64,000 nucleotides of DNA from positions 1,550,001 through 1,614,000 of the forward strand of contig NZ_JAYKZX010000003.1 in NCBI RefSeq assembly GCF_035989265.1, given 5' to 3'. How positions within the stretch are numbered: the stretch's first letter is position 1; every line of letters starts with the position of its first letter. The notes below the pieces were generated by a model, which saw only the letters and a program-made list of their open reading frames with translations, made no database searches and had not been told where the DNA came from. Below, in pieces: positions 18,158 to 44,591 of this stretch. The translations under genes were made by a program, and so were the position numbers. The stretch is from Sphingobium sp. HWE2-09. GTDB lineage: Bacteria > Pseudomonadota > Alphaproteobacteria > Sphingomonadales > Sphingomonadaceae.

Positions 18158-18190
18158 CCCTCTCCCTTGAGGGAGAGGGTTGGGTGAGGG
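18158..18190. repeat. palindromic unit, left flank of DUF559 cassette 1
   Basis: CCCTCTCCC-TTGA-GGGAGAGGG forms a hairpin followed by TTGGGTGAGGG. It lies between the carB start and the DUF559 start and occurs again in inverted orientation at 18650-18684. Confidence 0.8.
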
Positions 18191-18199
18191 TGTGAAACG

Positions 18200-18556
18200 G
18201 TGGCGGAAAAGCGCTTGACCAGCACCGCGCGAAAGCTGCGCGGTGAACCGACCGAAGCGGAAAAATCTCTTTGGGTGCGATTGCGGGCCAGTCAGATCGA
18301 TGGCTTCAAATTCGTCCGGCAATTCCCCATCGGCCCGCATGTGGTCGACTTTGCCTGCCGCAGCGCGAAACTCGTCGTTGAACTGGATGGCGGACAGCAC
18401 GCGACCAGCGAAACGGACGCCCCGCGCACAGCGCTCATCGAAGCCCATGGCTATCATTTGATCCGCTTCTGGAACCACGACGTTTTGTCCAATATGGAAG
18501 GCGTCCTGGAAACGATCCGGTCCGAACTGTATCTCGCCAGAAACCTTCTCCCTTGA
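18200..18556 (+). CDS. DUF559 endonuclease-like protein, copy 1
   Basis: A 118-residue protein of the DUF559 family, which has a PD-(D/E)XK, Vsr-like nuclease fold. It shows the typical order: basic N-terminus [49 protein letters not shown] (the D and ExD region fits the catalytic core), then [20 protein letters not shown]. The start is GTG. Its TGA stop lies in the loop of the hairpin at 18544-18565. It sits on the opposite strand to carB and carA, interrupting the car region, and is bracketed by inverted palindromic repeats. A function in repeat mobility is an inference. Confidence 0.85.
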
Positions 18557-18565
18557 GGGAGAAGG
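18544..18565. repeat. palindromic unit at the 3' end of DUF559 copy 1
   Basis: CCTTCTCCC-TTGA-GGGAGAAGG with perfect nine-base arms. The TGA stop codon of the DUF559 gene is in the loop. It differs from the left unit at one position per arm (compensated), so the pairing is conserved. Confidence 0.8.
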
Positions 18566-18649: not shown

Positions 18650-18684
18650 CCCTCACCCCGACCCTCTCCCCGCAGGGGAGAGGG
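18650..18684. repeat. palindromic unit, right flank of DUF559 cassette 1
   Basis: Reads CCCTCACCC, then ACCCTCTCCC-CGC-AGGGGAGAGGG. This is the left unit (18158-18190) inverted with a few changes, so the pair brackets about 490 bases with imperfect inverted ends. Confidence 0.75.
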
Positions 18685-20489: not shown

Positions 20490-20942
20490 ATGATTCGCGA
20501 TACCATCAAGAGCGCCCAGGTCACCGCCATGAAGGCTGGCGACAAGGAAAGGCTGGCCGCCGTCCGCCTGATCCTGGCGAAGCTGAAGGACCGCGACATC
20601 GAATTGCGAACCGCGTCCAGCGTGCCGGACGACGACGCCATCGTGGTGGAAGTCCTCCAGAAGATGGTGAAGCAGCGCCGCGAATCGATCGACATGTTCA
20701 AGTCCGGCGGCCGCGACGAACTGGCCGCCAAGGAACAGGCCGAACTCGACGTGATCGAAGGCTTCCTGCCCGCACAACTGAGCGAAAAGGAAACCAAGGC
20801 CGCGATCGAAGGGATCAAGGCGGAGATCGACGCGCAGAGCGTGCGCGACATGGGCAAGGTGATGGCCGTGCTGAAGGAACGCCATGGCAGCGTGATCGAT
20901 ATGAGCAAGGCGAGCGGGCTGGTGAAGGCGGCGCTTTCGTAA
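20490..20942 (+). CDS. GatB/YqeY domain protein
   Basis: A 150-residue protein of the YqeY family, homologous to the tail domain of the tRNA-dependent amidotransferase subunit GatB. It starts IRDTIKSAQVTAMKAGDKERLAAVRLI and has ELDVIEGFLPAQLSEKE and a closing region DMGKVMAVLKERHGSVIDMSKAS. Such free-standing YqeY proteins often sit upstream of dnaG and rpoD, as here, but their function is not settled. The start at 20490 follows AGGATT. Confidence 0.92.
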   Translation: MIRDTIKSAQVTAMKAGDKERLAAVRLILAKLKDRDIELRTASSVPDDDAIVVEVLQKMVKQRRESIDMFKSGGRDELAAKEQAELDVIEGFLPAQLSEKETKAAIEGIKAEIDAQSVRDMGKVMAVLKERHGSVIDMSKASGLVKAALS

Positions 20943-20966
20943 CAGAGTGAACCGGGGCTGACATAT

Positions 20967-21006
20967 AAAGCCCCTCCCTTCCAAGGGAGGGGTTGGGGTG
21001 GGTGAT
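20967..21006. repeat. left 40-bp terminal inverted repeat of DUF559 cassette 2
   Basis: Contains the palindrome CCCCTCCCTT-CC-AAGGGAGGGG followed by TTGGGGTGGGTGAT. Its exact reverse complement, all 40 positions, is at 21365-21404. The DUF559 start codon (21005) lies inside it. Confidence 0.95.
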
Positions 21007-21406
21007 GGCGCTACGCATCAATGCAAAACTCGGCCGATATGCGCACGATATGCGCCAGGAACCCACCTACTATGAACGGCGCCTATGGAACGCCTTGAGG
21101 GCATCGCAGCTAGGCGGATTCAAATTCCGTCGCCAAGCTGTGATCGAACCTTATATCTGCGACTTTCTGTGCCCTCTTATCGGCCTGATCGTCGAAGTTG
21201 ACGATGACCGCCATGACCCGATCAAGGATCAAGATCGCGACTTTGATCTTGCTCATCAAGGCTATTTGGTTTTGCGTTTTTCCAATGCCGACATTCGTGA
21301 CAATCTCGAAGGTGTGCTGACTGTCATTCTCGAACGCGCAATCACATTGCCTGAACGGCAGAAGATCACCCACCCCAACCCCTCCCTTGGAAGGGAGGGG
21401 CTTTAG
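21005..21406 (+). CDS. DUF559 endonuclease-like protein, copy 2
   Basis: A 133-residue DUF559 (Vsr-like PD-(D/E)XK) protein. Typical segments are MRQEPTYYERRLWNALRASQ, FKFRRQAVIEPYICDFLCP, IGLIVEVDDDRHD (candidate catalytic acids), and VLRFSNADIRDNLEGVL. It is about half identical by eye to copy 1 in these blocks. The last residues, THPNPSLGREGL, are encoded by the right inverted repeat, and the start codon is inside the left repeat, so the gene and its repeats behave as one unit. Third-position GC is lower than in yqeY and dnaG on either side, fitting an inserted element. Confidence 0.85.
   Translation: MALRINAKLGRYAHDMRQEPTYYERRLWNALRASQLGGFKFRRQAVIEPYICDFLCPLIGLIVEVDDDRHDPIKDQDRDFDLAHQGYLVLRFSNADIRDNLEGVLTVILERAITLPERQKITHPNPSLGREGL
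21365..21404. repeat. right 40-bp terminal inverted repeat of DUF559 cassette 2
   Basis: Perfect reverse complement of 20967-21006. It encodes the DUF559 C-terminus and the first base of its TAG stop. Its AGGGAGGGG also lies about nine bases before the dnaG ATG (21409) and probably acts as that gene's Shine-Dalgarno. Confidence 0.95.
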
Positions 21407-21408
21407 CC

Positions 21409-23292
21409 ATGACCCTCACCCCCCAATGGCTGGACGAACTGCGCGCGCGCACGTCGCTCTCCACCCTTATCGGCAAGACCGTCAAGGTCACCAAAGCAGG
21501 CCGCGAGTACAAAGCCTGCTGCCCGTTCCATAACGAAAAGACGCCCAGCTTCACGATCAACGACGAGAAGGGCTTCTACCATTGCTTCGGCTGCGGAGCG
21601 CATGGTGATGCGATCCGCTGGATGACCGACCAGCGCGGCCTGCCCTTCATGGAGGCGGTGAAGGAACTTGCCGCCGCCGCCAGCATGGACGTCCCCGCCG
21701 CCGACCCGCGCGCCGCCAAGCGCGCCGAAGTGGCCAAGGGACTGCATGACGCCATGACCGCCGCGCAGGGTTTTTTCGAGGAGCAACTGGGCGGCATCGA
21801 CGGCGGCGAAGCCCGCGCCTATCTGCAAAAGCGCGGCATCAGCGACGCCACCCGCCGCACTTTCGGCTTCGGCTTTTCCCCCGACGGGCGCAGTCGCCTG
21901 AAGAGCGCGCTCAAGGATTTTGGCGAACCGATGCTGGTCGAAGCCGGGTTGCTGATCGATCCGGACGGCGAACGCGACACCTATGATCGCTTCCGCGGCC
22001 GCCTGATGCTCCCCATCCGCGACATTCGCGGCCGCGTCATCGCGTTCGGCGGTCGCATATTGGGCGCTGGCGAACCCAAATATCTCAACTCCCCCGACAC
22101 GCCGCTCTTCGACAAGGGCCGCACCCTTTACAATATCGATCGCGCTTCCCCCGCCAGCCGCCAGACCGAACGGGTGATCGTGGTCGAAGGCTATATGGAC
22201 GTGATCGCGCTGGCTCAGGCGGGATTCGGCGACGCCGTCGCCCCGCTCGGCACCGCGCTCACCGAACATCAGATCGAACGGCTGTGGAAGATGGTCGAAG
22301 TGCCCATCCTATGCTTCGATGGCGATTCGGCGGGACAGAAAGCCGCGATCCGTGCCGCTACCCGCGCCCTGCCCCTGCTGCGCCCCGGCCATAGCCTCTG
22401 CTTCGCCACCCTGCCGCCCGGCCAGGATCCCGACGACCTGCTGCGCGCCAGCGGTCCCAAGGCGATGGAAGCGATCCTCGACGCCGCAGAGCCGCTGATC
22501 GAACGGCTGTGGAGCCATGAACTGTCCGCCATGCCGCTCGACACGCCCGAACAGAAAGCCGCGCTTAAACAGCGGCTCCGCGCCATCACCGACGCGATCG
22601 CCCATTCCGACGTGCGCGCCCATTATGCCCATGAATTTCGCGAACGCTATGATGCGCGCTTCTTCGCCCGCCGCGACGCCGCCCCGGCCCAGGGACAGCG
22701 CCGCAGCACGGCCGGTAGTGACGGCGGCCGCTGGCAGCGCGACAAGCGCGGCAATTGGAAACCGCCGATTCCCGGCGCCGGGACTGAAGTCCGCGCGATC
22801 GGCGCCAGCGGCATGGAACAGCGGTTGCTGCGCGCGATCCTGGCCGGCCTGTTGCGCCATCCGGCCCAGATCGCGCGCCATCGCGAGATGCTGTCGGGCC
22901 TGCAAATCGGCGATCCGCTGCTCGCTCAACTGCTCGCCGCGATGGTCGCCATGTCGTTTCGCAAAGAAACAGTTGAAACGCACGCCCTCCTTACCATATT
23001 GGGGCAAGGTGAAGTGTATAATATGGCTAAGGGAATGCTCCGGGCCGACACGTTCACACTCACCCCTCACAGGATGACAACCGATCCTGATCGCCTTGTC
23101 CGCGATCTGGAGGAAGCCATCCGGGTGATGGCGCAGGGTCCAGAGCTGGAGGCTGCGCTGGCAGAGGCGACGAGGCGGTTCGAAACGGATTTCAGCGAGG
23201 CGAATTTCGCCGAGCAACAGCGTATCCGCGCACTCAAGGCCGATCATGATCGTCGGCTGGCGGAACTGGCGCAGTCCGAAGACATTGTTTGA
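21409..23292 (+). CDS. dnaG: DNA primase
   Basis: Synthesises RNA primers at the replication fork. The 627 residues show a CHC2 zinc-binding domain (CPFHNEKTPSFTINDEKG, then CFGCGAHGD), the RNA-polymerase domain with EGYMDVIALAQAGF and the TOPRIM acid pair in FDGDSAGQKAA, and a C-terminal helicase-interacting region of about 180 residues. It begins two bases after the DUF559 stop, and its ribosome-binding site is supplied by the palindromic repeat. rpoD follows 75 bases downstream, the conserved remnant of the macromolecular-synthesis operon. Confidence 0.97.
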   Translation: MTLTPQWLDELRARTSLSTLIGKTVKVTKAGREYKACCPFHNEKTPSFTINDEKGFYHCFGCGAHGDAIRWMTDQRGLPFMEAVKELAAAASMDVPAADPRAAKRAEVAKGLHDAMTAAQGFFEEQLGGIDGGEARAYLQKRGISDATRRTFGFGFSPDGRSRLKSALKDFGEPMLVEAGLLIDPDGERDTYDRFRGRLMLPIRDIRGRVIAFGGRILGAGEPKYLNSPDTPLFDKGRTLYNIDRASPASRQTERVIVVEGYMDVIALAQAGFGDAVAPLGTALTEHQIERLWKMVEVPILCFDGDSAGQKAAIRAATRALPLLRPGHSLCFATLPPGQDPDDLLRASGPKAMEAILDAAEPLIERLWSHELSAMPLDTPEQKAALKQRLRAITDAIAHSDVRAHYAHEFRERYDARFFARRDAAPAQGQRRSTAGSDGGRWQRDKRGNWKPPIPGAGTEVRAIGASGMEQRLLRAILAGLLRHPAQIARHREMLSGLQIGDPLLAQLLAAMVAMSFRKETVETHALLTILGQGEVYNMAKGMLRADTFTLTPHRMTTDPDRLVRDLEEAIRVMAQGPELEAALAEATRRFETDFSEANFAEQQRIRALKADHDRRLAELAQSEDIV

Positions 23293-37114: not shown

Positions 37115-37202
37115 TCATCCCCGCGCAGGCGGGGATCCATCTTCCCAACTTGGTGCTTGGCGCAATATCTGGAGATGGATTCCCGCCTTCGCGGGAATGA
37201 CG
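37115..37202. repeat. paired palindromic repeat (GTCATCCCCGCG type), copy A
   Basis: Inverted halves GTCATCCCCGCGCAGGCGGG (from 37115) and its mirror ending in GCGGGAATGAC at 37202 enclose a variable spacer. The same pair, with 28-base halves, is at 40143-40230. Confidence 0.85.
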
Positions 37203-37224
37203 AGAAGGTTGGTTCCTGTCATTC

Positions 37225-37246
37225 CCCTCCCGCTCGCGGGAGGGGG
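37225..37246. repeat. solo palindromic unit (CCCCTCCC type)
   Basis: CCCCTCCCGC-TC-GCGGGAGGGG with perfect ten-base arms, essentially identical to the unit at 27181-27202. It lies beside the pseudogene and the paired repeat. Confidence 0.8.
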
Positions 37247-40142: not shown

Positions 40143-40230
40143 GTCATCCCCGCGAAGGCGGGGATCCATCTCCCAACGGATCAATTGGGCGACAGGCTGG
40201 GAGATAGATTCCCGCCTCCGCGGGAATGAC
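40143..40230. repeat. paired palindromic repeat (GTCATCCCCGCG type), copy B
   Basis: Halves at 40143-40170 and 40203-40230 in inverted orientation, each with a GTCATCCCCGCGAAGGCGGG-like core, separated by 32 bases. Same family as 37115-37202. It ends nine bases before the mfd start codon and starts five bases after sdhE, filling the whole spacer. Confidence 0.9.
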
Positions 40231-43747: not shown

Positions 43748-43815
43748 CCGGGGGTGGGTAGCGAGCGCAGCGAGCATCAGCCCCATCGGAGCAAAAACCC
43801 GCAAGCCCCCAATCC

Positions 43816-43845
43816 GTCACCCCGGGCTTGACCCGGGGCCCCGCT
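43816..43845. repeat. left 30-bp inverted repeat flanking the GIY-YIG gene
   Basis: Contains CCCCGGGCTTGACCCGGGG, itself a palindrome. Its reverse complement occurs at 44169-44198 with 29 of 30 positions identical. Confidence 0.95.
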
Positions 43846-43862: not shown

Positions 43863-44162
43863 ATGGAACGCGCACGACGGGGCGGCTGGGTTTATATCAT
43901 GGCCGATCGGTATCGCGGCACGATGTATGTCGGAGTGACATCCGATCTGACCCTGCGCATCCATCAGCACCGCTCCGGCGACGGGTCGGATTTTTGCGCG
44001 CGCTATGCTCTCCGCCGCCTCGTTTGGACGGAACGCGGCGACGACATCGTGGCGTGTATCGAGCAGGAAAAACGCATCAAGCGCTGGCGGCGGCAATGGA
44101 AATTTGAGTTGATTGAAAAAATCAATCCCGAGTGGCGGGATATGTTTGAAATGCTCACCTAG
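43863..44162 (+). CDS. GIY-YIG family nuclease-like protein
   Basis: A 99-residue single-domain GIY-YIG protein of the short UPF0213/YhbQ-like type. It has GGWVYIMADRYRGTMYVGVT, where VYI and YVG are the two halves of the GIY-YIG signature, then LTLRIHQHRSGDGSDF with the catalytic Arg, RLVWTERGDDIVACIEQEKRIKRW with the metal-binding Glu, and a closing FELIEKINPEWRDMF. Start ATG 43863 is 18 bases inside the left repeat, and the stop is six bases before the right repeat. The tight bracketing parallels the DUF559 genes. Confidence 0.88.
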   Translation: MERARRGGWVYIMADRYRGTMYVGVTSDLTLRIHQHRSGDGSDFCARYALRRLVWTERGDDIVACIEQEKRIKRWRRQWKFELIEKINPEWRDMFEMLT

Positions 44163-44168
44163 CAAGGT

Positions 44169-44198
44169 AGCGGGACCCCGGGTCAAGCCCGGGGTGAC
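44169..44198. repeat. right 30-bp inverted repeat flanking the GIY-YIG gene
   Basis: Reverse complement of 43816-43845 with one mismatch. It begins six bases after the GIY-YIG stop codon. Confidence 0.95.
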
Positions 44199-44591
44199 GA
44201 TTGAGGACAAGCCACCTCCCTCTTTCCTACTCCCCGCCTGCTGCTTATCCTACCCAATGGACCAGTCCCGCCTTCACACCACGCGCGCCTTCCAACATCC
44301 GATTAACTATGCGACCTACAAGGCGCGTCGGCGGTGCATCGCACTGACCCTCCAGGCGCGTCGGGGAAGCGCAACCCAAACCCTACGGCACCTCCATCCC
44401 AGCTTTCCCGCCACTTTTGCCAGCAAACCTCCACCCTACGATGGTGTGAACTTCGCCAGTGCCGCGTCACCATGGCCCACGCGTCAAATCGCCCTTCCTC
44501 ATCATCCGGCAAAGAAGCAGCAACAGGTCAAACCTAAATCTAGATCCGACGACCAGGCACCAAAGCATGGCGTCATCGCAGGAGACTTCAC
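44199..44591. other. intergenic region without a supported gene
   Basis: About 390 bases between the right GIY-YIG repeat and the next gene. Open frames on both strands here (for example on the minus strand around 44303-44512) lack ribosome-binding sites and protein-like sequence. It presumably contains the promoter for 44592; the only clear signal is GGAG at 44581-44584, the ribosome-binding site of that gene. Confidence 0.5.

Follow-up and report, generated by a model that had tools for sequence, protein, structure and literature searches.

Here we describe a 64,000-nucleotide stretch of the Sphingobium sp. HWE2-09 genome (contig NZ_JAYKZX010000003.1, positions 1,550,001 to 1,614,000; hereafter the window) in which positions 20966-21405 probably constitute a minimal mobile element, namely a DUF559 nuclease gene bounded by inverted palindromes that resemble repetitive extragenic palindromic (REP) sequences. 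The build is like that of REPIN-RAYT, the association of inverted REP doublets (REPINs) with REP-associated tyrosine transposases (RAYTs). Sequence comparison shows the basis for this reading, which consists of the anatomy of the element, the generality of its build, a match between arm type and nuclease clade, ends held in common with gene-less copies, presence at several sites, and turnover of the occupant at one junction. A sequence-only reading of this DNA had proposed a self-contained mobile unit with the nuclease as its sole gene, a proposal that elements at other sites, arm-only versions and the occupant turnover support, with comparison being what points to mobility.

The two arms form a perfect inverted repeat of 41 bp with 358 nt between them (Table 1), one base longer than the 40-base exact reverse complement claimed from the letters alone. 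Among perfect inverted repeats with arms at most 600 bp apart, this pair is the longest in the window, and the runner-up, of 24 bp, surrounds a GIY-YIG gene. A perfect match of 41 bp at such spacing is not due to chance, given a rough estimate of 64000 x 600 / 4^41. Each arm consists of a hairpin, CCCCTCCCTT-CC-AAGGGAGGGG, followed by TTGGGGTGGGTGAT, in agreement with the internal palindrome that had been read in both repeats. Equally, the arms supply both ends of the gene, as had been claimed. Because an in-frame ATG lies at 21005-21007, we place the start at the inner edge of the left arm, with two of the ATG bases inside it (alternative in-frame codons are GTG at 21002 and TTG at 20993). 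The TAG stop at 21404-21406 begins within the right arm, which codes for the C-terminal residues THPNPSLGREGL and most of the stop. The protein matches DUF559 in Pfam with an E value of 5.4e-30, and no other Pfam family was found in it.

We found that this build is general within the genus. DUF559 occurs in 37 of 41 genus genomes, with 144 matches, of which 116 places were tested and 115 retained (one had no strand call). Using a score of at least 16 as the criterion for inverted flanks and shifted positions as controls, inverted flanks were found at 106 of these 115 loci vs 0 of 460 controls. Across the phylum DUF559 is present in 112 of 299 genomes (one locus per genome), and among the best-scoring 30 loci 15 carry inverted flanks vs 2 of 60 controls. 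A further 80 named, more distant loci were considered; four with short flanks were dropped, 55 of the remaining 76 passed, and removal of two artefacts (an N run and a poly-C tract) left 53 of 74 vs 0 of 139 controls. Loci with inverted flanks in this set include Devosia, Rhodopseudomonas, Parvibaculum, Comamonas, Lysobacter and an NC10 genome, and those without include Pseudomonas, Dyella and two Novosphingobium loci. The build extends to another nuclease fold, since GIY-YIG genes of the genus have inverted flanks at 26 of 30 loci vs 0 of 60 controls, with arm families that differ from those of DUF559.

Our data indicate that arm type follows the nuclease. Arm types A1-A4, B, C and D were set by the tail, with patterns drawn up from these same arms. 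Left and right arm types agree in 73 of the 74 loci with both arms typed, the other 41 of 115 having one or no arm typed. Over the 105 rows of the nuclease tree there are 9 changes of arm type, where the minimum possible is 6 and the shuffled mean is 59.6. As many tree rows are orthologous, we used the flanks to assign the loci to 33 sites; when each of 31 sites is entered once, 7-8 changes remain, against at least 15 and on average 18.2 after shuffling. A G-quadruplex was considered as a common principle of the arms and rejected. In type A the motif is found in 70 of 74 left and 50 of 74 right arms, whereas types B, C and D have it in 0 of 37 on the left and 4 of 37 on the right; control segments have it in 0 of 230 on one strand and 3 of 230 on the other. 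Being nearly absent outside type A, it is not general.

The occupant of the window's site turns over among relatives. The element lies between genes that we take to be yqeY and dnaG. The comparison covers 30 genus genomes including the host (dnaG was matched in 40 of 41, and loci were assigned for 30). The spacer holds the DUF559 lineage of the window in 5 of the 30 (one copy frameshifted), two other DUF559 lineages in 9 and 4, and a GIY-YIG gene in 10, one of them a remnant, with inverted repeats unrelated to the DUF559 arms. In the remaining 2 the spacer is only 15 bp. Inverted ends, again at a score of at least 16, accompany 26 of the 28 occupied spacers. Mapped onto a DnaG tree, which has strong support for 8 of its 27 inner branches, the occupant shows 15 changes. 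Conservation of the same copy in all relatives, named beforehand as the outcome that would speak against mobility, was therefore not seen: 5 of 30 keep the lineage and the rest differ. The companion check, whether some relatives lack exactly this segment, turned up the two with the 15-bp spacer, but no relative was found in which DNA that is otherwise identical lacks precisely the segment. At a second junction, glyQ-glyS, a DUF559 element is present in the host alone among 30 genomes, 15 carry gene-less palindromic inserts and 14 have no spacer; these inserts fall into several families, and the one at L219 has type D arms.

Often, elements from separate sites resemble one another across gene and arms, with homology stopping at or near the outer arm edge, and in some pairs the alignment is confined to the gene. 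Two alike pairs lie inside single genomes, at 81% identity in G015 and 96% in G021, and further pieces in G021 lie at contig ends. Another genome (G036) has a GIY-YIG gene in a 438-bp block that recurs at four contig ends (L348-L351), and its 100% identity there suggests recent copying.

The arms also occur without a gene, as the sequence-only reading had suggested be checked. In the host genome a strict arm pattern gives 53 rows, which are 46 distinct type A copies, vs 0 for the reversed control. Convergent pairs among them comprise 9 gene-less doublets, measuring 93-121 bp between outer edges, and 2 pairs of 428-429 bp that enclose a DUF559 gene. Related pattern matches are present in 33 of 41 genus genomes, and among the 150 copies listed, which do not include the host genome, all 33 of 33 close pairs are convergent, 27 spanning 93-133 bp and 6 spanning 428-446 bp. 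By sequence, gene-less and gene-bearing copies have common ends, and the layout is that of REPINs. The exact tail of one arm type, followed through the 41 genomes, is of low copy with a weak surplus alongside its nuclease; a hand count of copies lying outside elements, which ignores phylogeny, gives 17 for the 12 genomes that have the nuclease and 5 for the 29 that do not. At yqeY-dnaG of one relative (L029, in G038), only residues 1-25 and 81-98 of the GIY-YIG protein are left and both arms are kept, which looks like an internal deletion en route to a gene-less doublet.

We also asked what the nuclease resembles. The predicted structure has a mean predicted local distance difference test score (pLDDT) of 85, and confidence is low for the C-terminus that the arm encodes (residues 120-132), which has no secondary structure in the model. 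In Foldseek the closest solved structure is another DUF559 protein (3hrl, E 5e-7), followed by the homing endonuclease I-Bth0305I (3r3p, E 2.9e-4), the closest with known function; further matches are AbaSI, PvuRts1I and Toxoplasma mitoribosomal proteins, and Vsr is weaker (E 0.04). The label Vsr-like, given earlier to this gene, agrees with the fold, although among solved structures of known function a homing endonuclease, not Vsr, comes nearest. Residues E23, D52, E63 and D65 are invariant and H69 nearly so (residue 1 is the Ala at 21008), and some of these may correspond to the catalytic E, D, H and D of EDxHD enzymes. A role in anti-phage defence was considered and set aside, as no PADLOC model matches either of the two DUF559 proteins of the window.

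From these data we infer that the nuclease drives movement of the element. The arms would be the ends of the element while also furnishing the start region and stop of the gene, and the gene-less doublets would be non-autonomous relatives of it, in the way that REPINs relate to RAYT transposases. The nuclease, with its Vsr/EDxHD fold, may nick or cut DNA either at the hairpin arm cognate to it or at a junction without the element, a step suggested by the co-evolution of arm and nuclease together with the fold. Host repair would then copy the element in, in a homing-like manner, as the turnover of occupants suggests, and moves to new sites would be rarer. It is quite possible, and we propose this tentatively, that such elements form a class in which small non-HUH nucleases (Vsr-fold DUF559, GIY-YIG), each clade with its own palindrome, mobilise the widespread REP-like repeats for which no RAYT is responsible, through structure-specific cutting of hairpin-forming arms and subsequent host repair.

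Several observations weigh against the mobile-element reading. Inverted flanks were not found, at a score of at least 16, at 15 of the 30 phylum loci and 21 of the 74 named loci. Most genus loci are at sites common to several species, with 115 loci falling into 33 sites, the largest of 14. The ends of the element may not be exactly the arms, because copies in G021 share further sequence: similarity between L133 and L166 extends about 30 bp past the arms, and the left ends of L133, L166, L353 and L354 have about 20-34 bp in common outside the arm, reflecting either a unit longer than arm-to-arm or similar target sites. Recent mobility is questioned by the gene itself. Across 40 pairs from the three DUF559 lineages at yqeY-dnaG (16 of 18 loci), the ratio of nonsynonymous to synonymous differences (pN/pS) is 0.10-0.30, within the range of dnaG, and in 30 of the 40 pairs synonymous divergence is as high as in dnaG or higher; these sequence measures mark the gene as an old one subject to purifying selection, not as a recent invasion. 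In the host, the doublets have an additional hairpin that is characteristic of a nuclease clade of nine members, and this clade was not found among the host DUF559 loci. Where a genome has an intact nuclease of this clade, arm copies are more numerous (8 vs 33 genomes, classes entered by hand; Mann-Whitney p 8e-4), but with phylogeny the surplus is not significant because just 2-4 independent pairs exist. Finally, no clean or identical empty site with a target duplication was found in the relatives compared. At the site of L051 the intergenic content is unlike in all four genomes compared and gives no exact insertion boundary, and ATGACC may be repeated around arm-only doublets of another family, a hint of a duplication.

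Escherichia coli was tried as an empty-site test and rejected. In 3333 of 5426 genomes the allele with ycjD, a DUF559 gene, matches a 1.5-kb query over at least 80% of its length. Two of the remaining genomes, inspected directly, carry a resistance-nodulation-division (RND) efflux operon beside fabI in its place, and hence offer no clean empty site. Downstream of ycjD in K-12 (L179), at a distance of about 190 bp, there is a REP-like hairpin with a G-rich tail, and the gene itself enters a degenerate CCCTCTCCC at its 3' end.

The unit could be mobile and yet be moved by a transposase in trans or by recombination between arms, with the nuclease as cargo that has another job. We consider this unlikely. 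A Y1_Tnp gene (PF01797, RAYT-type) is present in 12 of 41 congeners, and both the purifying selection on the nuclease and the host doublets, typical of a nuclease clade that was not found in the host, would suit such an arrangement. Arm type is nevertheless tied to its own nuclease clade across sites, the unrelated DUF559 and GIY-YIG folds are packaged alike with different arms, and Y1_Tnp has no match in the host genome (other transposase families were not searched). Alternatively, the gene might be a pure homing nuclease that undergoes allelic replacement at fixed loci only, the palindromes being target remnants instead of transposon ends. The turnover at yqeY-dnaG, the large groups of orthologous sites and the likeness to I-Bth0305I fit this idea, which we regard as very unlikely in view of the same clades at different sites with homology stopping at or near the arms, even within one genome, and of gene-less doublets with the same ends. 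That the gene is an ordinary Vsr-like repair gene flanked by incidental REPs acting as terminators or mRNA stabilisers is barely credible: homologues are annotated as very-short-patch-repair endonucleases, the structure weakly matches Vsr, and the Caulobacter DUF559 protein VsrA is linked to cytosine methylation (PMC12907096), but paired inverted arms occur at most genus loci and at none of the controls, arm type tracks nuclease clade, genomes hold several copies, and alternative nucleases occupy one junction.

The window contains three packages of like build in total, two with DUF559 and one with GIY-YIG (Table 1).

Table 1. Features of the nuclease packages and their neighbours in the window.
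Feature	Positions	Strand	Remarks
Left arm, yqeY-dnaG package	20966..21006	+	REP-like palindrome, hairpin 20971-20992, inward G-rich tail; includes first two ATG bases
DUF559 nuclease gene	21005..21406	+	133 codons, ATG start, TAG stop
Right arm, yqeY-dnaG package	21365..21405	-	exact reverse complement of left arm; hairpin 21379-21400
yqeY, left neighbour	20490..20942	+	putative name, from family
dnaG, right neighbour	21409..23292	+	putative name, from family
Left arm (type A1), second DUF559 package	18158..18190	+	
Second DUF559 gene	18200..18556	+	GTG start
Hairpin CCTTCTCCC-TTGA-GGGAGAAGG	18544..18565	.	overlaps end of second DUF559 gene
Right arm (type A1, inverted), second DUF559 package	18650..18684	-	
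Left arm, GIY-YIG package	43815..43838	+	palindrome unrelated to DUF559 arms
GIY-YIG nuclease gene	43863..44162	+	99 codons; PF01541 match, contig positions 1593884-1594102
Right arm, GIY-YIG package	44176..44199	-	exact reverse complement of left arm, 24 bp

Palindromes at 37117-37245 and 40146-40227 (ATCCCCGCG..GCGGGGAT and ATTCCCGCC..GCGGGAAT) resemble the arms of a second GIY-YIG group of the genus. Of the nine DUF559 matches in the host genome, two lie within open frames 2040 and 2057 residues long and the other seven are small. Perfect hairpins of the CCYTCCC or CCTCCCC type flank six of these seven on both sides; the arms of the remaining small locus (L003) are less perfect, and the two large frames have no hairpins of this kind. 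Within the REP arms of L003, L041, L106, L121, L125 and L131 we observed a palindrome with a CACGTG core, as if another repeat family inserts into arm hairpins.

Among the repeats of bacterial genomes REP-like palindromes are common, and we know of no named agent for their spread outside RAYT-linked families. The recurrence of these packages at many sites suggests that DUF559-like enzymes help spread some of them. If small DUF559 and GIY-YIG nucleases are such agents, a large family annotated as very-short-patch-repair endonuclease or of unknown function would gain a mobile-element role, and the gene-less doublets would be non-autonomous copies of DUF559 or GIY-YIG elements. Among the open-licence PubMed Central papers that searches listed, preprints excluded, none combines DUF559 with "repetitive extragenic palindromic" or GIY-YIG with "extragenic palindromic", though there may be a report in other wording. 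Related sources include a TnpAREP paper (PMC8266576) and REP surveys (PMC12306157, PMC3733652).

Among known systems, E. coli YcjD is a homologous protein with a REP-like hairpin and G-rich tail downstream, but the K-12 REP-like sequence is on the 3' side only and forms no inverted pair. The Vsr and VsrA proteins share a PD-(D/E)XK nuclease with a Vsr-like fold, and a DUF559 domain is assigned to Caulobacter VsrA too (PMC12907096). The window gene differs in being bounded by REPs and belonging to a family at many sites; no cytosine methyltransferase is found among its two neighbours, yqeY and dnaG, the rest of the genome not having been searched for one. Passages of another paper place DUF559 in the EDxHD homing endonuclease family (PMC9403480), and neither these nor the VsrA passages tie DUF559 to REP repeats. 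The modelled fold is like that of the EDxHD enzyme I-Bth0305I (3r3p), whereas the DUF559 package lies outside any intron or intein and has inverted palindromic ends and gene-less doublets. The closest parallel in build is REPIN-RAYT, for which two papers describe inverted REP doublets as non-autonomous and a REP type matched to the enzyme (PMC2817692, PMC3116915); the RAYT paper puts the origin of RAYTs within gammaproteobacteria. The present packages differ in that the enzyme is a DUF559 nuclease with a Vsr fold instead of a Y1/HUH transposase (PF01797), in that no GT(A/G)G directly precedes the hairpin in the window arm, the only arm scored for it (TAAAG is there, and GTGG occurs only in the tail), and in being found here mainly in Alphaproteobacteria. 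They are alike in that inverted arm doublets appear to be non-autonomous units, nine of them gene-less in the host genome, with an arm type matched to the enzyme.
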